A DNA stretch of 64,000 nt. It comes from Bordetella parapertussis. Its GTDB lineage: Bacteria > Bacteroidota > Bacteroidia > Chitinophagales > Chitinophagaceae. Positions 2,553 through 38,595 of this stretch are shown here, piece after piece; within the stretch, counting starts at the first letter, position 1; every line of letters starts with the position of its first letter. The position numbers and the translations under genes were made by a program. The stretch lies in assembly GCA_943331005.2 (NCBI GenBank), contig CALQJX020000019.1, forward strand, positions 1-64,000, written 5' to 3'. A model generated the notes under the pieces. It did not search any database, was not told the DNA's origin, and saw nothing but the letters and a program-made list of their open reading frames with translations.

Positions 2553-4832
2553 TTGAAACCTGATACTAAAAATACCGCTTCGCCAGTCAGTAATACCCAT
2601 CGTAACATACGCAGGTTGTGGCTCGCTTTTATCTCCATGCTTGTAGCTTTTGTGCTGCTGATATTTGGTATTGAGAATGGTTTGGTTGGCTACATGCCAT
2701 CGCTGGCCGAGTTAGAGAATCCGCAAAGTGCAGTATCGTCGGAGGTCTTGGCTTCTGATGGAACAGTATTGGGCAGGTATTATGTGCAGGACAGGTCGAA
2801 CAGTAAGTTCAAAGACATTTCACCTAATATTGTGAATGCACTGCTGGCAACAGAAGATGCTCGTTTTTATGATCACGCAGGTATAGATCCGGTTGCTACT
2901 GTAGCCATACCAGTTTATGTATTACTGCATAAAAAACGTGGTTCTTCAACGATCACGCAGCAGTTGGCCAAAAACCTCTTCCCCAGAAAAAGTACCAGTA
3001 TATTCACCTTGCCTTTCATGAAACTGAAGGAATGGGTACTAGCAGTGAAGCTGGAACGTAACCTAACCAAGCAGGAGATCATTACCCTTTACCTCAATAC
3101 AGTACCATTTAGCGATAATGTATATGGTATCAAAAATGCTTCCCTCACTTTTTTCAATAAAACACCAGATAAGGTATCTATAGAAGAAGCAGCAGTGCTG
3201 GTGGGGATGCTGAAAGGTAATACTATATACAACCCACGTACACGTGGCAAAAGAGCATTAGAGCGCCGCAATGTGGTATTGGAGCAGATGCTGAAGTATA
3301 ATGCTATCAACGATACTCAGTTCGATACGCTGAAGTCAAAACCAATAGTACTTGATTATCATAAGATCGATTATCATGATGGGCTGGCTCCATACTTCAG
3401 GCAGGTAGTAGAGCAGTATGTAAAGGCTGCTATTAAGGATCTGAATAAACCGGATGGTACCCCGTATGACATATATAAGGACGGACTGAAAATATATACT
3501 ACCATAGATATGCGTATGCAGCACTATGCTGAGGACGCAGTACAGGAACACCTGACCTCCCTGCAAAAGCAGTTTCTGGATCAGCCGGGCTATGTGGATG
3601 GCAGTATATGGAAGCGTAAGGGTAATGTGCAGAATATACTTATGACCAGTATAAAGTCATCTGACAGGTATCAGATGTTGCGCAATCAGGATAAGACTGA
3701 AGCACAGGCCATAGAGGAAATGAACAAACCTATTAAAATGAAGGTGTTTGCCTGGAATAAAACCCGCAGCAAAGACACTGTCATGAGCCCTATAGATTCT
3801 ATCAAGTACATGAAGCTATTCCTGCAGGCAGGTTTCATGGCTATGGATCCTTTTACCGGCGAGGTAAAAGCCTGGGTGGGAGGTATAGATCATAAGTTCT
3901 TTATGTATGACCATGTCAACATTAACACTAAACGTCAGGTGGGTTCTACTATCAAGCCACTGCTTTATTCATTTGCAATAGACAATGGTTTTTCTCCATG
4001 TGGTATTGTATCTACTGCACCACAGGATTTCCCGACACTATCTGCCCCATATGATGCCGGCGGATCTGATGAGGGTGATATAATGATGATGACAGCACTT
4101 GCCAAGTCTATCAATAATGCTGCATTGTACATTCTGAAGCAGGTAGGTATAGAACCTTTTGTTGACTTTGCACATAAGTGTGGCATAACCAGCCGCATAG
4201 ATGCAGTGCCATCTGTTGCTCTCGGTGTTTCTGATATTTCGCTATATGAAATGCTGGGTGCATATAGTATGTTCCCAAATGGAGGTATGCACACTGAGCC
4301 TTTCTTTCTGGTGAAGATCGAAGACAAAAATGGTATGCCAGTGAAGAACTTTGCCGCTAAACAGAAAGAACTGATCAATCATAACACTGCCTTCAAGATG
4401 GTGAAGATGATGCGTGGTGTGATAAATGCAGGTACCGGTGGCAGGCTTAGGTATCGCTATGGCATCTTTAATGATGTAGCTGGTAAAACCGGTACTACCA
4501 ATAATCAGGCAGATGCCTGGTTCATAGGTTATACTCCACAGCTTTTGGCAGGTGCATGGGTAGGTTGCGACGACAGAGAGTTCCGTTTCCGCAGCGAAAG
4601 ACTGGGACAGGGTGCAGCTGCGGCTTTACCTATATGGGCATTTTTCATGAAACGTGTATTTGCTGATCCTAAAACAGGTATCAACCCGGCTAAGACATTT
4701 GAAGCTCCTGCAGGTTTTATAGATTGTGCAGCTGAAGACACAGTTACAGATCCAACACTCAATCCTGCAGATTTGAATGTAGAAGAAGTAGAGGAGAAAG
4801 TAAGTGTACCTCAGGACGACCCATACAGATAA
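2553..4832 (+). CDS. Class A penicillin-binding protein (transglycosylase/transpeptidase)
   Basis: 759 residues. A membrane anchor near residues 22-45 is followed by a GT51 glycosyltransferase domain with the catalytic EDARFYDHAGID motif, GSSTITQQLAKN and the LERNLTKQEIITLYLN block. The C-terminal transpeptidase has the three penicillin-binding motifs: STIK (SxxK), SIN (SxN) and KTGT. It polymerises and cross-links peptidoglycan outside the inner membrane. The start is unusual: there is no in-frame ATG or GTG between the upstream stop (2493-2495) and the membrane segment; TTG 2553 fits the spacing from the -7 box seen at other genes here, TTG 2544 lies inside the box. Slightly short C-terminal tail after the KTGT motif, acidic. 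Confidence 0.92.
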   Translation: MKPDTKNTASPVSNTHRNIRRLWLAFISMLVAFVLLIFGIENGLVGYMPSLAELENPQSAVSSEVLASDGTVLGRYYVQDRSNSKFKDISPNIVNALLATEDARFYDHAGIDPVATVAIPVYVLLHKKRGSSTITQQLAKNLFPRKSTSIFTLPFMKLKEWVLAVKLERNLTKQEIITLYLNTVPFSDNVYGIKNASLTFFNKTPDKVSIEEAAVLVGMLKGNTIYNPRTRGKRALERRNVVLEQMLKYNAINDTQFDTLKSKPIVLDYHKIDYHDGLAPYFRQVVEQYVKAAIKDLNKPDGTPYDIYKDGLKIYTTIDMRMQHYAEDAVQEHLTSLQKQFLDQPGYVDGSIWKRKGNVQNILMTSIKSSDRYQMLRNQDKTEAQAIEEMNKPIKMKVFAWNKTRSKDTVMSPIDSIKYMKLFLQAGFMAMDPFTGEVKAWVGGIDHKFFMYDHVNINTKRQVGSTIKPLLYSFAIDNGFSPCGIVSTAPQDFPTLSAPYDAGGSDEGDIMMMTALAKSINNAALYILKQVGIEPFVDFAHKCGITSRIDAVPSVALGVSDISLYEMLGAYSMFPNGGMHTEPFFLVKIEDKNGMPVKNFAAKQKELINHNTAFKMVKMMRGVINAGTGGRLRYRYGIFNDVAGKTGTTNNQADAWFIGYTPQLLAGAWVGCDDREFRFRSERLGQGAAAALPIWAFFMKRVFADPKTGINPAKTFEAPAGFIDCAAEDTVTDPTLNPADLNVEEVEEKVSVPQDDPYR

Positions 4833-4846
4833 TGTCAACTTATTTT

Positions 4847-4880
4847 ATGTAGTACTTTTAAGAACGTACTACATTTTTTA
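4847..4880 (+). terminator. Rho-independent terminator of the penicillin-binding protein gene
   Basis: ATGTAGTAC (4847-4855) pairs with GTACTACAT (4866-4874) over a 10-nt loop, followed directly by a T-run. Confidence 0.8.
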
Positions 4881-4929
4881 TTAATTAAATAGTCAGACCG
4901 TAAATTATAGTTTTAGAAATACCCTAAAC

Positions 4930-4961
4930 AAAAAAGGCAACCTGTAGAGGTTGCCTTTTTT
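4930..4961. terminator. Strong bidirectional terminator
   Basis: AAAAAAGGCAACC (4930-4942) and GGTTGCCTTTTTT (4949-4961) form a 13-bp stem with a 6-nt loop; A and T runs allow termination in both directions. It closes the long minus-strand operon that ends with the YHYH gene. Confidence 0.88.
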
Positions 4962-4984
4962 GTTTGTTGTTATAATGATAGTAC

Positions 4985-6346
4985 TTACTTCATTATAGTA
5001 ATCTTCCTGGTGGTAGCAGATTGGTTGTTGTATATTCTTACTAAGTAATCTCCTGCATAAAATGTACGTGCATCTATATAAGATATTGTACTACCCTGGT
5101 TGATCTTTGAAGACTGCATAAGTTTACCGGTCATGTCATATACGTCTACATTCAGACTTTCTGTAAGCAGATTGCCAACCTGAATGGCGATAAAATCATT
5201 ACCCGGATTAGGGAATGCAATAACATCAAGACTACCATCAGTCATAGTAGTGATACCGGTTGTTGGATTGTAAACAGTAACCGTTTCTGTAATAGATGGT
5301 ACTTTTACTGCAACTTTATTACCATAGAATGTAGGCCCAACAGCATAAGGATAGGCTGAGTTCCAGTTGGCATCTACGGTACAGAAGTAGGCATAGGTAC
5401 CAGCAGGGTATTCTGGCGTAACACAGAAACGACCATTATGCTTATCTAGATAATCCGGTGTAGCGGCAGAGGTAGCATTATACTGATAATCTTCTCTGAA
5501 CAGACCCAGCGGATAGGTGGTACTTACGGCAGGACCTGCTGTAACGGTAGAACCATCGGCATACGTGGTGCGGGTAGTGATGGCCCTGAGCGCATAACTT
5601 GATTTGATCCTCACGATGCCGCCGGAGCCATCTGCGTTTTTATATCCATATGCTCCGTAGATTGGGTAGCCATCGTAAGCGAAACCGATAAGAGGAGAGT
5701 GTACTGCACTATCAATTGCATAAAGTCCATCTGCATCATACAAATTACAAACAGTAGAAATTACATTCTTGTCGAGTTTGTATGCACTAGGGTTCTGGTG
5801 GTGATGGTAATTGCCCATTGCCGGGTGACCTTTTGAGCAATCGAAACCTATCCTTTCTGCAACTACTGCATCTCTGTTCCAGACGCCATCGCCGGGCCCA
5901 CCGGGTATTGGGCCACCAGCCATAGCACTGGTACTGTTTTTCCACGATACACCATCCCGGTAATCGAAAAGTGCTACACCATTAATAAATACACCAATAT
6001 TGCCACCGGTAGTTGCTGTAGGTGTGCCGGTATTTGGAGTAGGGTTGAGCGGAAATTTGAAAATAGCATTCTGATTGGTTGCCAGGGAAGGGTTGCCATC
6101 CTGAAAAGGGCCAGTTACATAACCAGGTATACCCTTTGTTCTGATATATGCTGATGTACCTGAGTAGAGTACTGTTTGCACATTTGCTGAATCTGCATCA
6201 TTTACGGGCGTAGAACTTCCTACAGTATAATGCCTGCCAAGAATACCTGTAGTATTTCGGAGCCAGGAGGTGATCACAGGGTTTGTCTGTGCATGTACTG
6301 CCAGATTGCTGCAAACAATGGCCGATAATAATATTGATCTTTTCAT
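4985..6346 (-). CDS. YHYH-domain protein with T9SS type-A sorting domain
   Basis: 453 residues. An N-terminal signal peptide (residues 1-19, ending VHAQ) is followed by a region with the YHYH signature: GNYHHHQNP, then HSPLIGFAYDGYPIYGAYGY, and later repeated aromatic/Gly-rich blocks. The last ~80 residues (FPNPGNDFIAIQVGN ... YDMTGKLM ... GDYLVRIYNN ... ITIMK) are a T9SS type-A C-terminal sorting domain, so the mature protein should cross the outer membrane and be released or anchored at the surface. YHYH-domain function is not established; the HHH cluster suggests metal binding (inference). Last gene of the sigma/MbnP/MbnH operon, 38 nt after the MbnH-like gene, which links it to that system. 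Confidence 0.85.
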   Translation of the reverse strand: MKRSILLSAIVCSNLAVHAQTNPVITSWLRNTTGILGRHYTVGSSTPVNDADSANVQTVLYSGTSAYIRTKGIPGYVTGPFQDGNPSLATNQNAIFKFPLNPTPNTGTPTATTGGNIGVFINGVALFDYRDGVSWKNSTSAMAGGPIPGGPGDGVWNRDAVVAERIGFDCSKGHPAMGNYHHHQNPSAYKLDKNVISTVCNLYDADGLYAIDSAVHSPLIGFAYDGYPIYGAYGYKNADGSGGIVRIKSSYALRAITTRTTYADGSTVTAGPAVSTTYPLGLFREDYQYNATSAATPDYLDKHNGRFCVTPEYPAGTYAYFCTVDANWNSAYPYAVGPTFYGNKVAVKVPSITETVTVYNPTTGITTMTDGSLDVIAFPNPGNDFIAIQVGNLLTESLNVDVYDMTGKLMQSSKINQGSTISYIDARTFYAGDYLVRIYNNQSATTRKITIMK

Positions 6347-6384
6347 GCTTTATTTTTTATGTCTTTTTAGACGAAGAAAATCAG

Positions 6385-7428
6385 TTAATCCTTCGTAGGA
6401 GATGAAAATATATATTTAGGATAAGAGAATGAAGTGTTATAAAGAAAATCCTTATCTGTAAGGGTTAGTAGAAAAGCAAGTAAGTCTACTTTTTCATTGG
6501 AGTTAAATGTAACATGTTTTGATAGTTCGGGAGACAGTGAAGTGTTGTGAACAATACCCGAGTTGTAGTGTTCTATAACTTCCTGTAATCTTTTGAAACG
6601 GCCATCGTGCATGTATGGATATGAATATTCTACATTCCTGAGTGAGGGTATTCTGAAATGCAAAGAATCGGTATTTGATCCTGTGATCTTCATTCTGCCA
6701 ATATCGTTCAGTGTGGTATCGACCGGCAAACCATTGCCAGCAAAGCCATATGTAGTAAATAATGGTTCTTTATGGCAAACCGCGCAATATGTCTGAAATA
6801 ATACATGTCCTTTCTCCTCTTTATCTGTAAATGCAATCCCCTTTTCCTTGCGCATCACTTTGTCGTATTTGGAATTGGAACTTATGAGCGTGAGCATAAA
6901 TTGTGACATGGCTTTCAACATTCTTTCTCCCGAAATAGAAGTATCGCCAAAAGCATTATTAAATAATGCAGGATATAATGCAGAGCTGCGTAATCTTATC
7001 AATACGCTGTCGATGCCAGATGCCATCTCAGCCGGATGTGCAATTGGCGCAAGGGGTTGCATATCGAGGTGATTGATAGCACCATCCCACATGAACAGAG
7101 GTGCCCATGCCAGATTGAATAATGCCGGTGAGTTTCTGGTACCAATCTTTCCATTTATACCATGACTGAGACTGTGGTCTACATGTGTGAAGGCAGTATA
7201 TTGTAAATGACAGCTGCTACATGATATGTTACTGTCGGCAGAAAGTATGGGGTCGTAAAATAAAGCCCTGCCCAACAGTATCTTTTCTTTTGATAAAGGA
7301 TTATTCTTTAACTCGTATACCGGTGTAGGCCATCCCTTAGGTATGGAAAGATGTACTTTCTTATCTTTCCTGAATGCCAGTAGTAGCATGCAGATAATAC
7401 ATGATATGACCGCCAGGTTCTTTTTCAT
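6385..7428 (-). CDS. Di-haem cytochrome c peroxidase / MauG family protein, MbnH-like
   Basis: 347 residues with an N-terminal membrane/signal segment (residues 4-20). Two c-type haem motifs are visible, CSSCH near residue 71 and CAVCH near residue 215, at the spacing of bacterial di-haem peroxidases and MauG. The region SLRNVEYSYPYMHDGRF around residues 264-280 is also typical. In characterised methanobactin systems MbnH of this family oxidises a tryptophan of its partner MbnP to kynurenine; the start codon here overlaps the stop of an MbnP-like gene by one nucleotide, so that pairing is likely. It should act in the periplasm. It could instead be a general H2O2-detoxifying peroxidase, but the partner gene favours the MbnH role. 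Confidence 0.87.
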   Translation of the reverse strand: MKKNLAVISCIICMLLLAFRKDKKVHLSIPKGWPTPVYELKNNPLSKEKILLGRALFYDPILSADSNISCSSCHLQYTAFTHVDHSLSHGINGKIGTRNSPALFNLAWAPLFMWDGAINHLDMQPLAPIAHPAEMASGIDSVLIRLRSSALYPALFNNAFGDTSISGERMLKAMSQFMLTLISSNSKYDKVMRKEKGIAFTDKEEKGHVLFQTYCAVCHKEPLFTTYGFAGNGLPVDTTLNDIGRMKITGSNTDSLHFRIPSLRNVEYSYPYMHDGRFKRLQEVIEHYNSGIVHNTSLSPELSKHVTFNSNEKVDLLAFLLTLTDKDFLYNTSFSYPKYIFSSPTKD

Positions 7429-8123
7429 TATCTGATACTGAAGATACCGGCTGCCAATTGGGATAGTTCTACAGCTTGCAGACCGGGTATCATGATGCTG
7501 TATTGTTTGGTAATATCTATACCATATAGAAAGCGGGCAATGTTAGTGTTTATGTATATGTTTTCTGCCGGCGGTGTTTTTAAAGTAATGTTTTGTAATG
7601 TAGAAAATGCAGATGCGTATCCACCCAGATGAAATTGAAATTCATTCTTCCTGTTTGGGCAACGTTTGCTGGTTCCCTCTAATTTGAAATTGATATAACC
7701 ACTTTGCCAGGTCCAGTACATCCCTTTTGACGGATCGAGGTCTCCACCTTTTACACCTGAAACATTAGTGAAACTATCTATGCCAAGATGAAATTGAATT
7801 TCGTTGCTTTTTATATTATATGGAATATCAAATTCCAATATGAGTGAAGCCGGCACTGAAGCATCAATGAGGTGAAAACTTGCAGGTTCTGTCCAAACTG
7901 ACTGGTTGTTATTACAGAATTTAATATCAGATATATAGAAACGAAATGTTTCGATGGTCAAAGAATCTCCAGATTGATAGAGAATGTTATTGTAGGTAGG
8001 TGTTAGTAAAATGCTATCTATAAGTGGAACAAATGATATGGTTATTTTTTTTGTTTTCAGGGCATAGGAACTGTAACCCGAAAAGAGGAGTATATATATT
8101 AGGTATGAACATAAAAAACGCAT
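7428..8123 (-). CDS. MbnP-like copper-binding family protein
   Basis: 231 residues, signal peptide near residues 1-21. The core matches the MbnP family: FYISDIKF, FHLGID (112), GGDLDPSKGMYWTWQSGY (127-143), then FKLEG and FQFHLGGY. Three FHL histidines (H84, H112, H165) and W137/W139 are candidate copper-site residues, comparable to the His ligands and modified Trp of the related MopE/CorA and MbnP proteins. Periplasmic or surface protein. It overlaps the upstream sensor gene and the downstream MbnH-like gene by one nucleotide each, so translation is probably coupled. Copper binding is inferred from the family, not shown. Confidence 0.85.
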   Translation of the reverse strand: MRFLCSYLIYILLFSGYSSYALKTKKITISFVPLIDSILLTPTYNNILYQSGDSLTIETFRFYISDIKFCNNNQSVWTEPASFHLIDASVPASLILEFDIPYNIKSNEIQFHLGIDSFTNVSGVKGGDLDPSKGMYWTWQSGYINFKLEGTSKRCPNRKNEFQFHLGGYASAFSTLQNITLKTPPAENIYINTNIARFLYGIDITKQYSIMIPGLQAVELSQLAAGIFSIR

Positions 8124-8602
8124 TATGGTTTACGTGGTTTTCTGTCGGGTGGGGCAAACAAAAAAGCTATTTCTTTTGTAAGCTCTTCAAAATATATCTT
8201 TTGATCTGGAGTGCAAAGGTTTTTAATATCCTCAAAGTGTTTGTAATGTGTTTGTTCAATCTTTTTCTGAACAGAGGCAATGATAACGAATAAAGAATCT
8301 TTTGAATTGGATGTCTGAGATGCGGATAGTCCTGTATATAATTGATTTTTCAATTCCATCAATAGATCATTTGCCTGATCTATTTCTGATCTGTGCCATT
8401 TGATCAACTTATCATATTCTGTAACCTGAGCATCATTGAAATGAAGTTTCTTTACAATTAGATCTCTTGGTCCGCGGTGCCGACCCTGATGTGGGCCATC
8501 GGGACCTAGTTGATTACGTGAGTTGATAATGTAGCCAACCAGTAATAGATTGGCAAACAGCAAACCAATAATGATGTATAAATAAAATCTTGATTTTTCC
8601 AT
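8123..8602 (-). CDS. Membrane-anchored Spy/CpxP-like (CnrX-like) periplasmic sensor
   Basis: 159 residues: N-terminal membrane anchor (residues ~6-27), then a Gly/His/Arg/Pro stretch (GPDGPHQGRHRGPRD) and a predicted all-helical domain to residue ~150. LHFNDAQVTEYDKLIKWHR is reminiscent of the LTxxQ-type helices of CpxP/Spy and of metal-resistance sensors such as CnrX. Scattered histidines could bind metal. It sits 2 nt after the small anti-sigma gene, the same arrangement as CnrY-CnrX-CnrH. I infer that it senses metal or misfolded protein in the periplasm and controls the anti-sigma factor; a chaperone role is the alternative. Confidence 0.65.
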   Translation of the reverse strand: MEKSRFYLYIIIGLLFANLLLVGYIINSRNQLGPDGPHQGRHRGPRDLIVKKLHFNDAQVTEYDKLIKWHRSEIDQANDLLMELKNQLYTGLSASQTSNSKDSLFVIIASVQKKIEQTHYKHFEDIKNLCTPDQKIYFEELTKEIAFLFAPPDRKPRKP

Positions 8603-8604
8603 TT

Positions 8605-8880
8605 TTATTCGTATAATGAATTGCCGGGATTTAGATTCATAGAATGAACCAGAGCATTGGCAGTTTCCGAATTGTTACTGTTACTTTTTGATATGATGAA
8701 CAAATTGAAAATGACTATCAGGCAAAGTGTAGCAGTAGTAGCCCAGATCGTTGTAGGTGAAACCTTTTCCTTGTAGTTTTCAATTTTCTGTCTGATACGT
8801 GTATACAGAAAAGGAGGTGCATCAACTCTGCTGATGTTATCCAGAATGTCTGTAGTTTCGTTATTGTTGTTGTTATGCAT
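8605..8880 (-). CDS. Small single-pass anti-sigma factor (putative)
   Basis: 91 residues. A ~38-residue cytoplasmic N-terminus (TTDILDNISRVDAPPFLYTR) contains the VDAPPFLYTRI block often seen at the start of Bacteroidota anti-sigma proteins, followed by one membrane helix (residues ~42-63, IWATTATLCLIVIFNLFII) and a short periplasmic tail. No zinc-binding HxxxCxxC motif. Size and topology resemble CnrY. It follows the ECF sigma gene by 31 nt and precedes the sensor gene by 2 nt. The assignment rests on topology and context. Confidence 0.65.
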   Translation of the reverse strand: MHNNNNNETTDILDNISRVDAPPFLYTRIRQKIENYKEKVSPTTIWATTATLCLIVIFNLFIISKSNSNNSETANALVHSMNLNPGNSLYE

Positions 8881-8911
8881 GTTTACCTTCTGTTTGACGA
8901 CAACTTTATTA

Positions 8912-9427
8912 TTACCCTTCGTTTTGTTTCATTTTTTTGGCTAGGGCAGTTTTGGCTCTTTGAATCAGAGATTCTGTGGCCTTAATACTTATTCCCATTA
9001 TTGCTGCAATTTCTGCTTGAGATCTCTGTTCAGTTTTGCTGAGTAGTAAAGCAGTTTTCTGATTTTCGGGTAATTCGTTTATGTAGCTGAATATTTTTTC
9101 AATTGCCTGTTTTTGTTCCAGTTTCACACCAGGATGATCGAAGTGTGGCACCTCTAATTCGGTACCGTTGTTACCAAAAAGTGAAGTAATAAAAGAGATC
9201 CTCTTTTTTCTTTTTTTGGCTTTTATCTTATCCAGACATCGGTTGATAGTGATCCGGTATATCCAGGTAGAGATATTAGCATCGTGTCTGAAAGAGTCAA
9301 TTGACCTATGTACAGAAACAAAGACATCCTGTGTGGTTTCCTCTGCATCCTCATGATTTTGTAAATAGTTGAGGGCAAGGTTGTACACCATGTTTTTGTA
9401 ACGTTCATATATATCTTCTAGCGTCAA
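8912..9427 (-). CDS. ECF-family RNA polymerase sigma factor
   Basis: 171 residues. Region 2 spans ~5-75 (YKNMVYNLALNYLQNHEDAE, DVFVSVHRSIDSF, STWIYRITINRCLDKIK); region 4 spans ~110-165 (ELPENQKTALLLSKTEQRSQ, AEIAAIMGISIKATESLIQR), the helix-turn-helix that reads the -35 element. Only 31 nt separate it from the upstream conserved gene, so it may be both co-transcribed with fdhD and expressed from its own promoter. Downstream lie its probable anti-sigma and sensor, then MbnP/MbnH/YHYH genes, the likely regulon. Confidence 0.92.
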   Translation of the reverse strand: MTLEDIYERYKNMVYNLALNYLQNHEDAEETTQDVFVSVHRSIDSFRHDANISTWIYRITINRCLDKIKAKKRKKRISFITSLFGNNGTELEVPHFDHPGVKLEQKQAIEKIFSYINELPENQKTALLLSKTEQRSQAEIAAIMGISIKATESLIQRAKTALAKKMKQNEG

Positions 9428-9458
9428 TATTATCCGGGGTTGATTTCAGCTGGGGATA

Positions 9459-9830
9459 TTAACAAGTCTGCATTGGGTTCTCGTAATTGTCAGACTGATC
9501 TTCATTGCCGGAAGCATCAATACATTTGAAATCTTTTTCTACCAATAGAGATAGCGTATTACCATCAGGCAACTCCATTTTATGGTCGTAACCAACTATG
9601 TTATTGTTATTCCAACCTTTTGCTATTTTTTCAGGCACATACACGATAATAGCATTATTGTTCAGCGCTGCATGTAAATGTTCTGTATCTGCTGTAGCTT
9701 TTAAGACATATTTAAAAGAGCCTGTTGGGAACATTGTAGCTTCCTCAACTATACCACTGACAGCAAGTGTATATACTTCTGTCTTAGAGAGTCTTATCCT
9801 TATTGAATTTCCTCTTATTCTTATCTTCAT
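9459..9830 (-). CDS. Small conserved protein (DUF7009-like) next to fdhD
   Basis: 123 residues, no signal peptide. It begins MKIRIRGNSIRIRLSKTEV and ends with a DQSDNYENPMQTC tail. From memory this pattern fits a small Bacteroidota family (DUF7009) that is often next to molybdenum-cofactor genes, but I could not verify that. Predicted mostly beta. It lies 34 nt downstream of fdhD and 31 nt upstream of the ECF sigma gene. Function unknown; the fdhD neighbourhood suggests a molybdoenzyme maturation link. Confidence 0.6.
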   Translation of the reverse strand: MKIRIRGNSIRIRLSKTEVYTLAVSGIVEEATMFPTGSFKYVLKATADTEHLHAALNNNAIIVYVPEKIAKGWNNNNIVGYDHKMELPDGNTLSLLVEKDFKCIDASGNEDQSDNYENPMQTC

Positions 9831-9864
9831 ATACTTAATATTATAATTATATATGCCTCATCAG

Positions 9865-10698
9865 TTACAATTTTACATTTATTCTCTGTGCACCTGTATA
9901 TATATTACATCGCTCATTGCGTAGAAAGCCAACCAATGTTATTCCCCATTCATCTGCCATCTGCACAGCCAGACTGGATGGCGCTCCTACTGAAGCAATG
10001 ATCTTTATACCTGCCATAACGGCTTTTTGTACCAGTTCGAAACTGGTTCTGCCACTCAACAATAAAATATGTTCATTTAATGGTAGCTTATCATTCAGTA
10101 ATGATGAACCTATTAGTTTGTCTAGTGCATTATGTCTGCCGGCATCTTCATGCAGTGCCAGAAGTTCACCCTCCAACGAGAAGATTGAACAAGCATGCAG
10201 TCCACCGGTACTTTCAAAAACAGACTGTTGACTACGAAGTTTGTCTGGTAATGAGTATAGAAGGGTAGGGGAAATAGTTATGTTATCTTTTGTATCCAGA
10301 ATATTGCAGGTAGTTTTTACAGCTTCAATGGATGATTTGCCACATACTCCGCAACTAGAAGTAGTATAAAAATTTCGTTCCAGTTTGCCGATATCGGGAT
10401 GGCAATGGGGTTGTAGTGAAACAATAATAACATTATTGTTTTTAGTATCAACAATTTCAGCTTCTATAATATCGGTAACAGTATTTATAATGCCTTCGGT
10501 ATACAAAAAACCTATGGCCAGCTCTTTGTCCTGTCCGGGTGTACGCATTGTTACGGAGATACTTTTCACAACAATCCCTGCAGGCGTGTGGTATTTTATT
10601 CTAATCTCCAGTGGTTCTTCGGTTGCAACCCAATCGTTTTCATTAAGGGCATTATCTCCGTTAAGTCTTACAATAGATATTTTGGTTGCAGGTTTCAT
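9865..10698 (-). CDS. fdhD: Formate dehydrogenase accessory sulfurtransferase
   Basis: 277 residues, full length for FdhD. The CxxC sulfurtransferase motif is in TTSSCGVCGKSSIEA (residues ~113-127); TGGLHACSIF, HEDAGRHNALDKLIG and LLSGRTSFELVQKA are typical FdhD blocks. FdhD passes sulfur from the cysteine desulfurase to bis-MGD cofactor of formate dehydrogenases. No formate dehydrogenase or cofactor biosynthesis gene is in the window, so its client enzyme lies elsewhere. First gene of the eight-gene minus-strand run; a -7 box lies 17 nt upstream. Confidence 0.94.
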   Translation of the reverse strand: MKPATKISIVRLNGDNALNENDWVATEEPLEIRIKYHTPAGIVVKSISVTMRTPGQDKELAIGFLYTEGIINTVTDIIEAEIVDTKNNNVIIVSLQPHCHPDIGKLERNFYTTSSCGVCGKSSIEAVKTTCNILDTKDNITISPTLLYSLPDKLRSQQSVFESTGGLHACSIFSLEGELLALHEDAGRHNALDKLIGSSLLNDKLPLNEHILLLSGRTSFELVQKAVMAGIKIIASVGAPSSLAVQMADEWGITLVGFLRNERCNIYTGAQRINVKL

Positions 10699-10715
10699 TT
10701 AGTAAAATATACAGA

Positions 10716-10723
10716 CAAATGTA
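10716..10723 (-). promoter_or_regulatory. -7 box TACATTTG (minus strand) for fdhD
   Basis: Plus-strand CAAATGTA is the reverse complement of a perfect TAnnTTTG box, 17 nt before the fdhD ATG and 14 bp from the divergent Nudix -7 box. Confidence 0.6.
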
Positions 10724-10737
10724 CAGGAATGATTGAG

Positions 10738-10745
10738 TAGTTTTG
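10738..10745 (+). promoter_or_regulatory. -7 box TAGTTTTG for the Nudix gene
   Basis: Exact TAnnTTTG match, 17 nt before ATG 10763. A TTG at 10733 that keeps the frame open lies upstream of this box and is therefore rejected as start. Confidence 0.6.
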
Positions 10746-10762
10746 TGAACTTAATTGCAAGT

Positions 10763-11344
10763 ATGTACCTGAAAGAAGAAATACTGAACCTGCTACAAAT
10801 ATATAATAACGTATTTCCTGAGGAGAAAGAAGGTGTTGCTTCTTTTACTGCATATCTGCAAAGGAATGAAGGTAATGCATTGTATACCAGGAAGAATTTT
10901 GACGGACATATTACTACCAGTGCCTTTGTAGTGGATGCTGCCAGTGCAGAAATTTTGCTACTGAAACATAAGTCGCTAAACAGGTGGTTGCAACCCGGAG
11001 GGCATACTGAAGGGGATGTGTCTTTTATGGCATCGGCACTGAGAGAGGCAATGGAAGAAACGGGGATGACTGAATCTGATCTTAGTCCTTATTATATAGA
11101 GGAGGGTAGTGATGTGCCATTTGATATAGATTCGCACCATATTCCAGCCAACCTTAAAAAAGAAGAAGACGCTCATTATCACCATGATCTCAGGTATCTA
11201 TTCCTGTATACTGGAGACCGCAACCATAGCTATAATGAAGAGGAGGCTACCGGTATGCAATGGGTCAGCTTCGACAGTTTGAAAACTGACGAAACCTTTG
11301 GGGCTGTGATCGCAAAGATCGAAGCGCATCTTGCAACAAGGTAA
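10763..11344 (+). CDS. Nudix hydrolase
   Basis: 193 residues from ATG 10763 (MYLKEEILNLL). The Nudix box reads GGHTEGDVSFMASALREAME followed by ETGM; REAMEETGM is canonical while the first Glu of GX5E is an Asp (GHTEGD). The fold would hydrolyse a nucleoside diphosphate linked to another moiety, using Mg2+. The substrate cannot be told from sequence; the N-terminal ~60 residues are an extension before the Nudix core. Convergent with ubiE, with a 7-nt gap and a weak GTAAAA/TTTTAC hairpin (11341-11355) over both stop codons. Confidence 0.88.
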   Translation: MYLKEEILNLLQIYNNVFPEEKEGVASFTAYLQRNEGNALYTRKNFDGHITTSAFVVDAASAEILLLKHKSLNRWLQPGGHTEGDVSFMASALREAMEETGMTESDLSPYYIEEGSDVPFDIDSHHIPANLKKEEDAHYHHDLRYLFLYTGDRNHSYNEEEATGMQWVSFDSLKTDETFGAVIAKIEAHLATR

Positions 11345-12587: not shown

Positions 12588-15500
12588 ATGAAGAAGATCT
12601 ACTTATTGCTGTTGTTATGTGCTATGAGTATACCTGGTTTTTCTCAGGTTGTTGCCATTAGCCCTACAGGAGACGGAGGATTTGAAAGTGGCACTACGCT
12701 TGCCGCAAACGGATGGACTGGTGTCAATACATCAGCATCGATTGGCTGGTATTTGGGAACTGTGCCAACAGGTTATTCAGGTGCGCGATGTTCTTATTTC
12801 TCAATCAGTTCGGGTACAGCAAATGACTATAACCCGAGTGCTGCGGCAACAAGTCACTTCTACAGGGATATTACGATACCTGTTGGTGCAACTTCTATAA
12901 ACCTTTCTTTCTTATTGAAAGGAAGTGGAGAGACTGGTTACGACCGGCTTTTAGTATACACAGCACCTACTACAGTTACACCAGCTGCTGGTGTTCCTGC
13001 ATCTAGCACTACTGCACTTGCCGGAGCTACTCTGGTATATACTCAGGCTGCTTTTTATGCAACATATACATCTCAATCTATAACACTGCCAAATACACTT
13101 GCAGGCACAACTGTAAGATTGATCTTTACCTGGCAGAATGACGGAGTAATTGGTACATTACCTGCAGCTGCTGTGGATAATATATCATTCACTTATATCC
13201 CTCCTCCTCCAACAATTACTGCTGCACCAACTACACTTAGTTTTGGTGGTGTAACCGTTGGTACGCCATCTCCTGCACAGGTTGCTAATATAGCAGGTAC
13301 TTTCCTTTCTCCTGCGGCAGGTACATATACTGTTACTGCTCCTGCAAACTATGAAGTATCCAGTGATGGTACTACATGGTTCAGCAGTTATACTACAGCC
13401 TACACAGGATCAGGTTTCACTTCAGTTCCTGTATATATCAGGTTGACACCAACAGCTGCAACTACCTATTGTGGTAACGTAACAATAGCTGGTGGTACTG
13501 CTACTACAAACATTGCTGTTTGTGGTACCGGTTCTACTGCATGTTCAGGAACGCCAACTCCGGGTACTGCCGCTATATCTCCGGCAAGTGGTCTTGCAAC
13601 TACACCTTTCACACTTAGTCTTACCGGCACAACGGTAGCTGGTGGACTTACTTATCAGTGGCAGTCTTCTACCTCTGCAACAGGTCCGTTTACAAACATA
13701 TCAGGTGCTACTACTACTACATTTGGCTTTACCGGTATTTCCAGCAATATGTATTATCAGGCGGTGGTTACCTGTCCTACATTTACTCCTGCACAGTCTA
13801 ACACTGTAATGGCTACATTCCTTCCGACACCTGCTTGTACTACTACAGCAGCATCATGGACTAGTGTAGGTAGCTTCACTTATGGTGTTGCAACGTTCAG
13901 TGTAACTGCAGCAACAGGTCCGAACCTGCTTGATAACACCATTATGGCTTCGTTGAATACTGCAACTGCTTATCTGAGCAGGACAGCTACGATAGCTCCT
14001 ATTACTCTTTATAAAGGCAACTTCTATCCAAGTTCTATTTCATACGGTACAGCTTCAACTTATCAGGAAGCACAGGTTTGGATAGACTTCAATAATGATG
14101 GTGTATTCTCTATATCAGAAGAAGTTACAGGCGTTATCGGATTAGGTTTGTTAACTACTACTATTAACCCGGTAAATTTCAATATCACTATTCCACTTTC
14201 AGCACCAACAGGTGTGCACCTGATGCGTGTGCGCGGCATATGGGAAAGTATTGCAACTACACTCGGTGTGTACCCCGCACGTTTGGATCCATGTCTGCTG
14301 AACTTTGCATCTTCAAACCCTAACTATTTTAGTGGTACCTGTGTTGATTATTATGTAGACATTCAGACGGCTCCACCATGTGTTGGTACACCAACGGCAG
14401 GTATTATCAATGCTACTGTAAGTAACGGTTGTACTCCATATACCAGTAACCTTACTCTGGTAGGTGCATCTTCTTCATCAGGTCTTTTATTCCAATGGTC
14501 TTCATCTGCTGATGACATCACTTATGCTCCTATCACCGGTGCTACAAGTAATACTTACGCAGCAAGTGTAACTGCTAATATTTACTACAAGTGTACCATT
14601 ACTTGTGTAGCAAGCGGACTTAGCGCAACAACTCCATCAAAGTATCTTACACTTCTTCCTGTATCCTATGCATCAATACCTTTCTTTGAAAGCTTTGAAC
14701 CATCATGGATAAATGCATGTGCTATAGCAGATGCACCAAACAACTTCTGGAGGAACACGACAACATCTGTTTCAGTAAACAACTTCTGGAGAAGGCAGGA
14801 TGATCCGCAAGCTGCCAACACAGGTGCGTGGGTTAACCCAACACTTGGTCAATTTGCACCAGTTTCCAGCGATGGTTCCTATTCTGCAAGGTGGCACTCA
14901 TATCAGGCTTCATCCGGAACTACCGGTGATCTGAATCTGTACATCAATCTTCCTGTAGGTACAAAGCAAATCAGCTATGATTACATTAACACTTCCGGTA
15001 CAGATGTGATTACATGTCGCATATCTATAGATGGTGGTGCAACATGGACAACTGTAGATGCACCTCCTGCTGTAGCAAGTATCTGGACTAACAGAACATT
15101 TACTACTACACTTGCTTCCCCTACAGCAATTGTAAGGTTTCAAACTACAGGCGACTTCGGTGTGACGGATATAGGTCTGGATAACGTAAATATCTATGAA
15201 CTGCTTCCATGTGTTACACCAACAAACCAGCCTACAGTACTGAACCTTACACCAGGTCTGTTCAATGTCAATGGTTCGTTTACTGCATCATCTCCTGCTG
15301 CAAATAAATACATGGTCATCATGACCACAACAAGTACTGCACCAACTGCGCCTACAGATGGCATCAACTATGCTGTTGGTTCTACTGTGCTTGGTGGTAC
15401 TGTTGTTGCAAATTCGAACTATACTACCTACAATGCTACCGGTCTTACACCAGGTACTCAGTATTGGTTCTGGGTGTATGCATATAATTCATTGTGTACA

Positions 15501-18500
15501 GGTGGACCACTTTATGCAACCGGTGCACCGCTTACAAATACTGTCTTAACTACATCTTGTAGTCTTACAGGTATCAAAACTGTAGGCCCTACAGGTGACT
15601 ATCCGACAATTACTGCAGCACTTACAGCCGTTAATACTTTTGGTCTTGCAGGTCCGTTGGCTATAGAGTTGCAAACTACTTATGACGGAACAGGAGAAAC
15701 TTATCCTATTGTGATATCTACACCTCCATGTGCCAGTGCAACAAATACACTTACTATCCGTCCTCAGGGCACACTTACTGTAACTTATGGTACTGCAGCT
15801 CAACCATTCTTCGATCTGAATGGTGCAAGGTATGTGATCATAGACGGCAGGGTGGGTTCTACTGGTACAACCAAAGCACTTACTATCATCAATACCAACA
15901 CCGGTGGTCAGGCAATAAGGTTTGTAAATGATGCATCAAACAACATCGTTCGATACTGTAACGTGAAGAGTGTAAACACTTCTACAGTACAGGGTACTAT
16001 ATTCTTCTTTACAACTACGGGTCTTACTGGTAATGATAACAACATCATAGATAATTGCGACATCTCTGATGGCGCAACTACTCCATATAATGCAATATAT
16101 TCTACAGGTACTACAGGTAAAGAAAATAGCGGTAACGTAATTTCGAACTGTAATATCTCTAACTTCTTTGCTGCTACCACAACTTCAAATGGTATCTTCC
16201 TGAGTACTGCAAATACAGACTGGACCATAACCGGTAACAGATTATTCCAGACTGCTGCGCGTACTTATACTACCGGTACAGCCCATCGTGGTATCATCAT
16301 ATCCAATACGGTTGGTAACAACTTCGTAGTTACAAACAATACAGTTGGTTATGCATCTGCTGCTGGTACCGGCACTTACACAATGAATGGTGCAGTTGCT
16401 ACCAGTTTCCAGGCAATCTACTTGTCTGTAGGTAATGCAATTCCTTCTTCTGTTCAGGGTAATATAGTGACCGGCTTCAATTTCACCACAACAAGTACTG
16501 CTTCTACGGTAGGTGGTGCATTTACAGGTATCAATATTATTTTTGGTTCTGTAAATGTTGGTAACATAACACCGAACATAATAGGCGCGACTTCAGGTAA
16601 TGGAGCTATTACTGCTACCATCAATACAAATACAGGTGGTACTGTTGTTGGTATCAATGCATCTGCATCAAACCCTGCAGCTATTAATATACAGAACAAC
16701 ATTATTGGCTCTATAACTGTAAACAATGGCACTACTACACTTGGTGGTGGTATACAGGGTATACAGATATCATCTACAGGTTCTTATTCTGTTACAGGTA
16801 ATACAATTGGTAGCACAACAACTGCAAACAGTTTCAGTATGCCAACAGTTACTACCGGTGCTCAGTTCATATACGGTATCAACTCTGCTACTACAACAGC
16901 CAACATTGTTCAGCCGATCATTTCTAACAATATTGTTGCAAACCACACAGCCCTTGGTAATGCAACAACAAGTGCATCGGCAGGTATCATTAATACCAGC
17001 AATGCATCTGCAACAATTACAGGTAATACTATCTACAACATCAGCAGTGCTACAACAAACACAGTAGCTACCGGACAGACAGGTGTGATGGGTATAGGAT
17101 ATTATGGTAACACATTGCCATTGGCAACAATTACCAACAATACTATCTACTCAATCATTAATACTAACACTACAGCTATCGGCACTACAGTATGTGGTAT
17201 CGGCACTACAAATGCTGTTGGTCCGATGATAGCAGGCAACAAGATCTATGATCTGCGCAACGCAAACACAGGTACTACTGCTACTGCTCCGCCAAGGGCT
17301 GTAGGTGTACTTGTTGGTACGCCTACAACAACAGGTGCAACAGTTGTCAACAACATGATATCACTCGGTAATGCACTCACAACCAATACATCATTCACAG
17401 GTATCATGAATGCTGCAACAGGTACATTGCCAATGAATGTGTACTTCAATACAGTCAATATAGAAGGTACTGCAACAACCGGTGCTAACCCATCGGCATG
17501 TATGATAAGGGGTAACTACTCTGCTACAGCGTTTACTACACCAATGGATGTACGTAACAACATCTTCAATAACGTACGTACTGGTGGTACCGGTAAACAT
17601 TATGCTATTGCCAATACAGTAGGTGGTACTGCAAGTGCAACAGGCTGGGGTTCAAACGCATCGAACTACAACATCCTTAATGGTAATGCAGCTACAATTG
17701 GTTTCTGGTCCGGTGATAAAACTTTTGCTACCTGGAAAACATCTTCTTTGAGTGATAACAACTCATATACTGCAAGTGCTGTAACATTTGTGAACGCTGC
17801 TGCAGGTGACCTCCACATAAACATGGGTGTTATTGCTAATAACGTAGAGTCTCATGGTATAGCAATTGCCGGTTACAATACGGACTTTGACAACCAGACA
17901 AGGCCTGGTCCTACTTCTGTAAATGGCGGAGGTTTCGCTCCTGATCTTGGTGCTGATGAGTTTGATGGTAACCCATTGTCAAATCTTCCTCCAACTATCA
18001 CTTACACTACGCTTACCAATGCATGTGGTACAGGCGACAGGACATTCACAGCAACAATTGCTGATGGTGATCTTATCCCGATCTCGGGCACTCTTCAGCC
18101 AAGGGTATACTTCAAGAAAGGTGCTGCCGGTACATGGTTCAGCACTCAGGGTACTCTTACTGCAGGTACTGCTGCAAACGGAACATGGAGTTTCACTATT
18201 TCAAGTTCACTCATGGGTGGTCTGGCTCTGAATGATCAGATTTTTTATTATGTAATTGCACAGGATGGTGCCACACAGATATCATCAAACCCATCTGCAG
18301 GTATGGTTGCTACAGATGTAAACACTGTAACTACACCTCCTACAACACCAAACAGCTATAACGTGCTGCTTTCATTGAGCGGTACTATACCTGTAGGTGC
18401 TGCAAGTGCTGCACCGTTCAATACTATCACAAGTGCAGTGAACGCATACAATACTGGCTGTATCTCTGGTCCGGTAGTATTCTCTCTTACAGATGCTACT

Positions 18501-21500
18501 TATCCTACTGAAACATTCCCGATAACAGTTCAGCTGAATCCGTTTGCAAGTGTTACCAATACGCTTACTATTCAGCCAGCTCCGGGTGTTGCCGTAAACA
18601 TAAATGGTCTTGCAGCATCTCCTGCGATTTTCAAATTCCTCAATGCTAAATATGTAACATTGGATGGTTTGAATACAGGTGGTTCAAGTCTTTCATTGAA
18701 TAACAACAATACCGGTACTTCTGCAACAGTTTGGTTTGCAAGTACCAACCTAGTTGGTCCTGGTAACAAATTTGTTACTGTTAGGAATACCAACATTGTA
18801 GGTGGTACTAATATTTCAGGTGCTACATCAAGCTGGGGTTTCCTGTCTGCTATAGATGGCGCAACACCAACTACTACTTCAGGTATGGATAACGATAATA
18901 TCACTATCCAGAATAATAATGTGACCAGAGTAGCATATGGTATCTATGCCTTTGGTACTGCTTATTCTTCTACTGGAGGTTTGGACAACTGGTTGATAAC
19001 CGGTAATAAATTCGGTCCGGATGTAAATGATGTAACAACGAACATTTCTTACAATGGTATGTATATGGGTAGTATGATGAACCCTGTTGTTACCAACAAT
19101 ACTGTACAGAATGTGGGTCTGCCTACATTAGCTTCTCAGGTAGTAGGTATCTTCTTTACCGGCCTTGTAAATGGTGCCGTTGTAAGTCAGAACACGATAA
19201 ATGGTCTGGTTTCTAATCAATGCTCCAGCTCCACAGGTGCCAACTTTGGTATAGGCTTTGGTTCTGTAAATACAATTCAGAACTGTACTATTACCAGAAA
19301 CGTGATATACAACATTAGTAACATATACAATGCAGCAAGTTGCGGACGTAGTGTAGGTATCATGATCAATACCTCTAATGGTGCAAGTAATACATTGATC
19401 GCAAACAACATGATCTCTGACATAAGATGTATGTCTGGAGCATCTGTTATCTATATGCCTGCAGGTATTGATATCGTAGGTACATCCGGTGGTGTTAAGG
19501 TTTATTACAATACCATTAATATGAATAGCGCGGTTGCAGGTAATAATGCTGCTACATTCTCTTCTTGTATCTACATCAGTAATGGTACCGGTTCAGGACT
19601 TGATATCAGGAATAACATATTCAGGAACAGTTACGATAACACTACCGTATCAAGTGATCTGAACTATTCTATCTATTCTGCAGTAGGTTCATCTAATTAC
19701 TCTAATATTAATTACAATAACTATTCAGTTGCCGGTACAAATCCATTGGCATTCATATTCTCTAACCAGTTCACATTGGCAAATATTCAGTCTGGATTAG
19801 GTGGTGATGCTAACTCTATGGTTTTGGCACCACAATTTATAAGCGGTACAAATTTGCGTCTGCTTGCATTTGCAGGTAACCTTCCGCTTATAGCAGGTAC
19901 TCCTGCAGTAAACGCAACTGTTGGTAATGACATAGATGGCACTACAAGGAGTGGTACAAACCCTGTAATTGGTGCTCATGAGGTAGTAATTGTTAACTGT
20001 ACCGGTTCTGTAGCAGGTACTGCTGCTCCGGCAATACCAGTATTCTGCGGATCTGGTGTAACAACTATCAATACAGCGGGTACTACTCAGGGACTGGGTG
20101 TATCTTACCAGTGGCAGTCTTCAACCGATAGTGCTGCATGGACAAACATAAGTGGTGCAACTAGCCTTAGCTATACAATACCTACAGCTATTTCAAATAC
20201 TACTTGGTACAGGATGAAGGTAGGTTGTAGCTTCAGTGCTACATCTGATTCCGTAACTACAAAGGTTGTTATCAATCCATTCCCTGCTCCAATTACAGGT
20301 CCTAACAAACTGTGTATCAACTCTACTTATACACTTGCCTCTGCTACACCATCAGGTATATGGAGCAGTAGTAACCCTGTTGTAGGCACTATTAGCCCTA
20401 CCGGTGTTGTTACAACAGGTGCCGGTGGAGGCAATACGATCATCAGCTATACATTGAGTACAGGTTGCCGTGTTACATCAAACGTAACAGTAAACAGTGT
20501 ACTTCCTGTAGTTTCAATAAATCCAACTCCCGGTACGGTTTGCGAAGGCGGTACTTCTCTGTTGAGCAGTACTTCTACAAATCCTGGTGCAACAGTATAT
20601 ACAATTGATAACATTACTTTTGCTCCGGTAACATTTACAGCAACCGGAACTTTCTCATCAGCTACTACGCCAACAACAGGTAGTAATGATGATGGTAACT
20701 ATTCTGTTCCTCTGCCATTTGCGTTTGAATTCTACGGAACTACTTATGCGGCAGGTACAAGTATGTTTATTGGCACAAATGGTTATGTTTCATTTGTCTC
20801 AGGTATGACAACTACAAGTATCGGAACAATGCCTAACGTTTCATTCCCGGCTACAATGTCGATCTTCGGCAGGGATATGAACCTGAATACAGGCGGTAAC
20901 ATTACATATGGTACAACAGGTACTGCACCTAACAGGAAGTTTGTAGTAAGCTATAACAGTGTTCCTGACTTTAGTACAGGTTTGATCGAAAATGGTCAGA
21001 TAGTACTTTCTGAGGCGACAGGTAATATTGAATATCATATTACTGCTGCAGCGGCTTCAACTCACTCTATAGGTATACAGGCTGCTGCAGGCTCTGCTTC
21101 AGCTATAGTGCCAGGTCAGAACTTTTCAACAACTCCACTTACAAACACAGCATACAGATTTGTTAAACCAAGTCCTGTTTATACATGGGTTGCTGATACT
21201 TCTCTTAGCGCTACCAATATTTTGTCACCAACTGCATCACCTGTAAATGCGACTACAACATATACGCTTACAGTTACAGCATCGAACGGTTGTGTGGCAA
21301 GTGCTAATGCTACTGTGACCACAAACCCTGTACCTGCTTCAATAGGTGGTACACTTCAGGTTTGTGCAGGTCTTACAACAACACTTTCTAACACAGCAAC
21401 AGGTGGTACGTGGCAGAGCAGTAACACTGCTATTGCTACTGTAGGTTCTACAACAGGTGTTGTAACAGGTGTAACTGCCGGTACTGTAACAATGACCTAT

Positions 21501-37767: not shown

Positions 37768-38571
37768 TTATTCCATTATAAGATTACCGTAATCTTTGTC
37801 CACTTTCAGGCTATGTTCTTTGTGCTGATTGTTGCAGTCGGTTTCGAATATACCTGCCAATAACTGACACTTATCATCGCCGGTTATACAGTTGAACAGG
37901 TCTTGAGCTGTTGCCGGTTTAGACTGGGCGTTGAGTACTATTGTTTCTCCTGTGTTGATACGGCGGATACGTATCTCATCTACAGTTACTTTGCATTGAG
38001 TACCCACACCTTCAGGGGTCTTATAATGCAGCTGTTTGGCCTGATCCGGTTCCAGGATCTTGCAGGTAGCTATGGCCGATGTTTTGCGATCCTGACAATG
38101 TATGGTCTGAATGATACATATCTCCAGCGGGCAGGCAGTGGCATTGCAAACAAATTCTTTGGTAAGGTCGTAGCCACCTGCCGATGCCAGTCTTTTGCTT
38201 TCTGAAGCTGCAGGTGCTGCGGTTACCAATATAGATTGATCGTTGGTAGTACCTATAATTGTATCAACGGTTATGGCAGCAGTTGCTGCATTGGCAGAAG
38301 ATGGTACAGCAGGAATGCTTGCAGTAACCTCTGCAGCCCAGTTGCTGGAGTGTGCAGAAGGTGCATTTTTGCTGTCGGAAAGAAAGCGCATGGCCACAGT
38401 GCTACCCAGCAACAACAAAACAGCTGCAGCCAGCAAGCCAACTACAGGGCTCTTTTTCTTTTTGCCATGCAGGTTTGCCGACAAGCGACGCCATTCGGCA
38501 TCCTTATCGAACCCGGGCATTAACTCCTCCGGCGAAGCTTCTTCCATTTTATCTCTCAGCGACGTACTCAT
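37768..38571 (-). CDS. Single-pass membrane protein, putative anti-sigma factor with Cys-rich periplasmic domain
   Basis: 267 residues: cytoplasmic N-terminus of ~40 residues (EELMPGFDKDAEWRRLSANL), one membrane helix at about 43-62, then a ~200-residue periplasmic part. That part has at least nine cysteines (CNATACPLEICIIQTIHC, later CKV, CITGDDKCQ, TDCNN). It follows the ECF sigma gene by 24 nt, which suggests it holds that sigma factor. No zinc-binding anti-sigma motif is visible. The periplasmic domain family is unknown to me; disulfide state could be what is sensed (speculation). Confidence 0.65.
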   Translation of the reverse strand: MSTSLRDKMEEASPEELMPGFDKDAEWRRLSANLHGKKKKSPVVGLLAAAVLLLLGSTVAMRFLSDSKNAPSAHSSNWAAEVTASIPAVPSSANAATAAITVDTIIGTTNDQSILVTAAPAASESKRLASAGGYDLTKEFVCNATACPLEICIIQTIHCQDRKTSAIATCKILEPDQAKQLHYKTPEGVGTQCKVTVDEIRIRRINTGETIVLNAQSKPATAQDLFNCITGDDKCQLLAGIFETDCNNQHKEHSLKVDKDYGNLIME

Positions 38572-38595
38572 ACCTATGGTTTTTGCTCTACTTTA

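Follow-up and report, generated by a model that had tools for sequence, protein, structure and literature searches.

The window, a stretch of 64,000 nucleotides (nt) at the start of contig CALQJX020000019.1, carries on its minus strand six open reading frames (ORFs) running from position 9427 down to 4985, with gaps of 31, 2, -1, -1 and 38 nt; this agrees with the six same-direction genes and the spacing given in an earlier note made from the letters of this DNA. In reading order they are assigned to an extracytoplasmic function (ECF) sigma factor, a putative anti-sigma factor, a membrane-anchored sensor, an MbnP-family protein, an MbnH-like di-haem enzyme and a YHYH protein with a type IX secretion system (T9SS) sorting domain (Table 1). 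The first three are called the trio here, and the last three the cargo. Literature is cited by PubMed Central (PMC) number, and statements attached to these numbers refer to the excerpts of the papers that were available.

Table 1. Genes of the cluster and the hairpin that follows it (aa, amino acids; CCP, cytochrome c peroxidase)
Feature	Coordinates	Strand	Details
ECF sigma factor	8912..9427	-	171 aa; TTG is the first in-frame start; PF04542 67 bits, PF08281 52 bits
Putative anti-sigma factor	8605..8880	-	91 aa; assigned from position and layout
Membrane-anchored CnrX-fold sensor	8123..8602	-	159 aa; conserved N18 (in the anchor), Q59, H70, H122, C130, Q134
MbnP-family copper-binding protein (putative)	7428..8123	-	231 aa; W137-x-W139, H165, M211; PF20243 138 bits
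MbnH-like di-haem enzyme, MauG/CCP family	6385..7428	-	347 aa; haem motifs at C70 and C215; PF03150 169 bits
YHYH protein with T9SS C-terminal sorting domain	4985..6346	-	453 aa; PF14240 188 bits, PF18962 46 bits
Terminator-like hairpin 3' of the last gene	4925..4966	.	consensus scan; T-rich on one side, A-rich on the other

The gene identities proposed in the earlier note are borne out by Pfam and NCBIfam matches for four of the genes, and for the sensor and the anti-sigma factor by topology, fold, homologues and context. The sigma factor ORF also matches TIGR02937 (93 bits, over the cut-off), and the PF20243 and PF14240 scores of the MbnP and YHYH ORFs stand against cut-offs of 27 and 25 bits. 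Scores below the cut-off were obtained with the TIGR04052 equivalog for MbnP (36 bits, cut-off 140) and with TIGR04039, the MbnH model (209 bits, cut-off 363). The only Pfam match of the sensor is sub-threshold (PF13801 Metal_resist, expectation value (E) 0.06), and the 91-aa ORF gave no meaningful family match in Pfam or NCBIfam.

Among solved structures, the nearest fold to the sensor is CnrX, of the CnrY-CnrX-CnrH system of Cupriavidus metallidurans pMOL28, and CnrX entries stand above Spy and CpxP in the fold ranking. Profile comparison by hhalign of 35 trio sensors with CnrX gave a probability of 88.6 and an E of 2.6e-6, and the narrower sensor alignment alone gave a probability of 14 and an E of 0.0019; judged by profile, the sensor is a homologue of CnrX. 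Its fold, anchoring and homology uphold the CnrH/CnrY/CnrX-like logic read earlier from the gene layout. An ECF sigma factor, a tiny one-helix anti-sigma factor and an N-terminally anchored periplasmic sensor are grouped in both systems, although the order here is sigma, anti-sigma, sensor, compared with Y-X-H on pMOL28, and the cargo is not an RND (resistance-nodulation-division) efflux pump. The metal ligands of CnrX are H42, H46, E63, H119 and M123, and the sole equivalent in the sensor is that of H119, a histidine in the same place (here H122) that is retained in 65/71 trio sensors. An asparagine within the membrane anchor, N18, is invariant (71/71) and may contact the helix of the anti-sigma factor. 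The anchor helix is predicted at residues 3-30 and coincides with a hydrophobic peak, the anchoring call being drawn from these and not from a dedicated cleavage predictor. The helical-hairpin fold and the LTxxQ-type glutamines are shared with Spy, CpxP and ZraP; unlike these proteins, the sensor is predicted to retain its N-terminal anchor, and its gene sits after sigma and anti-sigma genes.

The 91-aa protein has a single hydrophobic helix starting at residue 45, and CnrY, of 95 aa, has its helix at 46; the comparison between the two covered length and helix position. In the alignment of this protein (A5, 30 members), a cytoplasmic VDAPPFLxTRI motif and a periplasmic tail ending in N-x-LY are shared by many sequences. 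Position and layout point to an anti-sigma function, for which the N-x-LY tail would be the natural sensor contact. As for the sigma gene, the first in-frame start is TTG in 22/32 trio loci (ATG in 6, GTG in 3 and CTG in 1), possibly a conserved weak start, all start codons having been assigned mechanically.

In MbnP, the residues W137, W139, H165 and M211 are invariant in the 27/27 sequences of alignment A1, and over 80 MbnP loci H165 is kept in 80/80 and M211 in 77/80. Manesis et al. 2021, a study cited in PMC9426467, are reported to have found that the leading Trp of WxW is converted to kynurenine and that a His and a Met sit at the copper. The four residues are those expected for a kynurenine-copper site, the correspondence of the His and the Met being read from the sequence without a structural check. 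Structural precedent comes from CorA, in which a Cu(I) site is formed by two His and kynurenine (PMC3912023). No solved relative of MbnP was found by profile, single-sequence or paralogue search, and none was found in viral contigs, where 11 stretches fitted the pattern and 0 were confirmed. On plasmids, the six genes were unmatched by blastn, and the sensor and MbnP by tblastn. The closest solved relative of the MbnH-like protein is the di-haem enzyme 6e1c (E 3.5e-38), and both of its CxxCH haem motifs are retained in 75/75 aligned relatives. The WxW motif, the conserved His and Met and a neighbouring di-haem enzyme that carries two haem motifs are features in common with MbnP/MbnH, CorA/CorB and MopE/SACCP; what sets the pair here apart from MbnP/MbnH is scores below the NCBIfam equivalog cut-offs, a sigma switch of its own and a YHYH partner. 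Each of the ten genomes reached via the loci (G001-G010) holds 2 to 5 MbnP-family matches, several with an MbnH-like neighbour.

The YHYH and T9SS domains occur together in 36/36 members of alignment A3, in keeping with the T9SS-type YHYH protein recognized in the earlier note. In the same members H174, H183, H216, D169, D225 and E164 are invariant (36/36), and H181 is present in 35/36. The family has been predicted to bind zinc through three His and one Asp and to act as a hydrolase (PMC7824862), and the protein is probably metal-binding or a metal-dependent hydrolase. Its structure model has a predicted local distance difference test (pLDDT) score of 60-69 over residues 141-210, where several of the invariant residues fall, so no site geometry is claimed. 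Against solved structures, the full model matches almost only via the T9SS tail, and its BFVD matches are YHYH proteins from giant viruses and from phages. The domain family and the conserved His and Asp are those of the phage YHYH proteins (PMC7824862), but here the protein is T9SS-tailed and lies beside copper-protein genes. On pMOL28, a 40-aa protein annotated as 'YHYH domain-containing' adjoins cnrYXH (L171, 27905-28027).

A genome scan with alignment A1, whose pattern itself included the WxW motif, confirmed 397 relatives of MbnP. Locus counts refer to the best 80 of these and are therefore biased towards close relatives of the MbnP in the window. MbnH follows in 67 and YHYH in 51 of the 69 loci with at least 2.6 kb downstream (within 6 kb, same strand), and the first figure supports the pairing of MbnP with an MbnH-like di-haem enzyme made in the earlier note. 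Upstream DNA of 2.5 kb or more is available in 63 loci, of which 27 have the full trio, 3 part of it and 33 none, which means that MbnP-MbnH-YHYH does not need the trio. All six genes are present in 17 of the 54 loci with enough DNA on both sides; across all 80 loci, incomplete flanks included, the trio is found in 32 and all six genes in 22, with every gap below 150 nt in 14. Sensor and MbnP genes overlap or lie at most 60 nt apart in 33 of the 36 loci having both. An absence of conserved order, which the earlier note had allowed for, was not what the neighbourhoods gave: gene order is conserved. A link of YHYH with the trio was unsupported (YHYH in 19/25 loci with the sensor vs 22/29 without). 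A protein group of T9SS-tailed multicopper oxidases is represented in 11 of the loci, three of which were examined with Pfam; in L018, L021 and L074 the gene lies between MbnH and YHYH. Redoxin genes lie near some clusters.

The broader sample consisted of 395 genomes from the phylum of G001, a genome picked for having the cluster. The narrow sensor profile A2 matches 66 of them (E 1e-3), the MbnP profile A1 39 (E 1e-20) and YHYH 38 (E 1e-8), and these counts are lower bounds, since in most genomes scoring was limited to the 7 to 9 leading candidates. Pairs within 5 kb were found at 5 places for sensor-MbnP, 8 for MbnP-YHYH and 7 for sensor-YHYH, where uniform placement predicts 0.05, 0.10 and 0.07; G001 itself supplies one place of each pair. 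At the five MbnP places above 200 bits, the sensor is nearby in four and YHYH in four. The genes are associated beyond chance, with the same order in many genomes and pairs above expectation, and the full cluster is a minority trait in the phylum.

The cluster consists of two co-inherited modules, the regulatory trio and the cargo MbnP-MbnH-YHYH. Distances were compared over 24 loci that hold the complete set, among them the window and L078, where YHYH precedes MbnP. Spearman correlations of pairwise distances are 0.78-0.82 within the trio, 0.45-0.62 within the cargo and 0.27-0.55 across modules. A quick sigma factor tree (71 rows) places that of the window in one starred branch (Shimodaira-Hasegawa-like approximate likelihood ratio test, SH-aLRT, 99) whose 23 members are all MbnP-linked. 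The MbnP label changes 7 times on the tree, at least 5 of these changes being forced by starred branches, and shuffled labels average 23.9 changes. This pattern indicates a dedicated MbnP lineage, with other trio lineages joining MbnP separately.

The trio is also found ahead of other genes. In 40 neighbourhoods of sensor matches, an ECF sigma gene lies at most 900 nt upstream in 38; the other two (L168 and L169) are weak matches with starts resembling cleavable signal peptides. Downstream of the trio come MbnP-MbnH (L136, L156, L157), an MbnH-like gene without MbnP (L158, L159), YHYH with SCO1/SenC, a copper-flavoured cargo without MbnP or MbnH (L132, L163, L164), or an MscS-type channel gene in seven loci (L134, L137, L139, L145, L146, L147, L152). 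Elsewhere the trio precedes a T9SS-tailed phosphoesterase, arylsulfotransferase or Lcl_C protein, or no evident cargo. Ten cargo representatives were examined with Pfam, L145 being the one for MscS.

The broad sensor profile A6 matches 217/395 genomes at E 1e-5, with at most 9 candidates scored per genome, and at E 8.4e-19 or better it still matches 134/395, about one third. Twenty further strong matches, hand-picked across the score range, all have an ECF gene upstream (20/20, at 286-1241 nt), and in 19/20 a small ORF with a hydrophobic stretch lies between it and the sensor; in five of the twenty (L172, L177, L179, L180, L186) a soluble Spy-like gene separates the anchored sensor from the anti-sigma-like ORF. 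Among eight weaker or partial matches, L199 is anchored and has an ECF gene, and the other seven have a soluble-looking or unclear start and no ECF gene upstream, the one of L197 adjoining another trio. Every anchored sensor that was checked thus had an ECF gene ahead of it. Class I anti-sigma factors are reported near only 6% of Bacteroidetes ECF sigma factors, and other classes are suspected and may dominate (PMC7406223). The trio is a candidate for such non-class-I systems and gives this search a concrete, conserved and testable form. On solid medium, Prevotella intermedia raises expression of an ECF gene and both neighbouring genes; in the excerpt an LTXXQ protein is reported separately, unlinked to that gene group (PMC2633007). 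No prior description of the trio was found in open-licence PMC papers, and ECF reclassification literature outside that scope may describe it.

Our leading interpretation, held with a little less than even confidence, is a two-module operon in which a switch made of sigma factor, anti-sigma factor and sensor is coupled to copper-protein maturation by MbnP, MbnH and YHYH. The ECF sigma factor would be kept at the inner membrane by the tiny one-helix anti-sigma factor, whose periplasmic tail would be read by the anchored CnrX-fold sensor; a periplasmic signal would then release the sigma factor and lead to transcription of the operon, the sigma gene included. MbnH would oxidise W137, the first Trp of WxW in MbnP, to kynurenine, which with H165 and M211 may form a Cu(I) site, and the YHYH protein would reach the cell surface through type IX secretion. 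The likeliest signal would be periplasmic copper status or the accompanying redox stress; whether excess or scarcity is answered, and the role of the YHYH protein, are matters that we infer. The interpretation is built on observed gene content, co-inheritance within the trio and within the cargo, conserved order with overlapping genes, a sensor like CnrX in fold and homology, an anti-sigma factor of CnrY-like size and layout, and a sigma clade of 23 linked only to MbnP. It also draws on the conserved residues of MbnP and MbnH, on copper-linked neighbours (multicopper oxidase, and SCO1 behind other trios) and on precedents in the Cu(I)-kynurenine site of CorA/CorB (PMC3912023) and in MbnPH-like genes of copper-regulated operons (PMC9426467).

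Several observations weigh on the other side. The ligands H42, H46, E63 and M123 of CnrX are not retained in the sensor (M123 is aligned with I126). An extra histidine of the sensor, His119, is present in 19/23 members of the main clade, 0/14 other MbnP-linked sensors and 1/34 unlinked ones; it was rejected as a marker of MbnP linkage and tracks the sigma lineage. A two-block promoter motif upstream of the sigma genes was likewise rejected, as it stood at most about 1.1 bits above three simple shuffles and was inconsistent in position in a set of 20/23 clade members (L019 and L021 were left out as near copies, and L136 was not included). Moreover, 33/63 MbnP loci do without the trio, and the trio precedes cargos with no evident metal link (MscS, phosphoesterase, arylsulfotransferase). 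Because the trio serves Bacteroidota generally, ahead of other cargos too, its presence does not by itself speak for a metal signal, and it was rejected as proof of metal sensing. Metal binding, sigma factor release and tryptophan oxidation in this operon would be predictions from the sequence.

The Spy-like traits of the sensor raise a different possibility, less probable in our view yet a serious one, in which the switch answers envelope stress: the sensor would detect misfolded or surface-bound proteins in the manner of Spy or CpxP, and MbnP-MbnH-YHYH would be one of many envelope or T9SS outputs. This fits less well with the 35 trio sensors, of which Metal_resist matches 24 and LTXXQ 16, with the rank of CnrX above Spy and CpxP in the fold search, and with H122, the equivalent of a CnrX metal ligand, in 65/71. 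A switch for another metal or an oxidant, be it zinc, nickel, iron or peroxide, in which case MbnP-MbnH would act in redox defence, appears improbable. CnrX responds to Ni and Co, which would speak for such a signal, as would the kinship of MbnH with cytochrome c peroxidases and the redoxin genes near some clusters. It is opposed by the recurrent multicopper oxidase and SCO1 neighbours and by W137, W139, H165 and M211, all kept and fitting the copper site that MbnP is said to have. The zinc binding predicted for YHYH (PMC7824862) would again favour it. That the trio controls genes elsewhere and merely sits before MbnP seems very improbable: the lower distance correlations across modules than within them and the 33/63 loci without the trio would agree with simple adjacency, but in 33/36 loci having both, the sensor gene overlaps the MbnP gene or comes within 60 nt of it, and trio lineages joined MbnP on separate occasions.

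Copper-responsive control of a related gene pair by other means has been described. The earlier note placed known MbnH/MbnP pairs beside methanobactin or related genes, and this is too narrow: the pair is conserved far outside methanobactin producers (PMC3621798), and MbnPH-like genes lie in copper-regulated, CruR-headed operons of Bordetella and others (PMC9426467). The CruR-headed operons resemble the present one in envelope copper control of such genes (copper being presumed here), but they use a copper-sensing leader ORF and Rho termination in place of a sigma factor trio (PMC9426467). In the methanobactin operons of Methylosinus, an ECF sigma factor and membrane partner, MbnI/MbnR, lie near MbnP/MbnH; that pair is of the FecI/FecR type and answers a TonB receptor, whereas the trio is of the CnrX type with no receptor among the six genes (PMC3621798). 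No methanobactin genes turned up among the scanned proteins of the window, in a scan that ran no MbnA, MbnB/MbnC or MbnT profile. MbnP and YHYH were not found together in any of the open-licence PMC papers searched. New in the present analysis are the kinship of sensor and CnrX, the division of the cluster into two modules, the sigma clade confined to MbnP loci, and the observation that the trio is in wide use. A bolder extension, possible but rather doubtful, is that the trio of ECF sigma factor, one-helix anti-sigma factor and anchored CnrX-fold sensor forms a phylum-wide Bacteroidota signalling class that fills the class I shortage, and that the lineage with H119 (one turn before H122) has turned into a copper switch dedicated to an operon that matures a kynurenine-copper site and exports YHYH to the surface. 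Because a regulator, a predicted tryptophan-oxidising enzyme, the likely substrate of that enzyme and a surface partner are encoded in one operon, formation of the kynurenine site can be studied under its native regulation; for the YHYH family, so far unexplained, the operon offers a setting in which ideas can be tested.

Around the operon, no Rfam match reached gathering scores over 4500-10800, and a sigma-70-type promoter scan stayed at chance level. The hairpin at the 3' end, with one side rich in T and the other in A, is possibly a bidirectional terminator; terminator-like sites around the operon are not more frequent than in shuffled sequence. Immediately upstream of the sigma gene lie a DUF7009 gene (9459-9830) and an FdhD gene (9865-10698), and the same pair is ahead of the trio in 3/80 loci (L012, L015, L019); with DUF7009 so close, the transcript may begin further up. 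Elsewhere in the window, a second sigma-like gene (38596-39189) scores 159 bits to the sigma profile, and the 267-aa protein after it (region 37768-39189), without Pfam match at 1e-5, is perhaps its anti-sigma factor. A 4491-aa ORF (12588-26063) combines a signal-like start with an end that looks T9SS-like by eye, and contains internal repeats whose period is 438 nt near 22754-23922.

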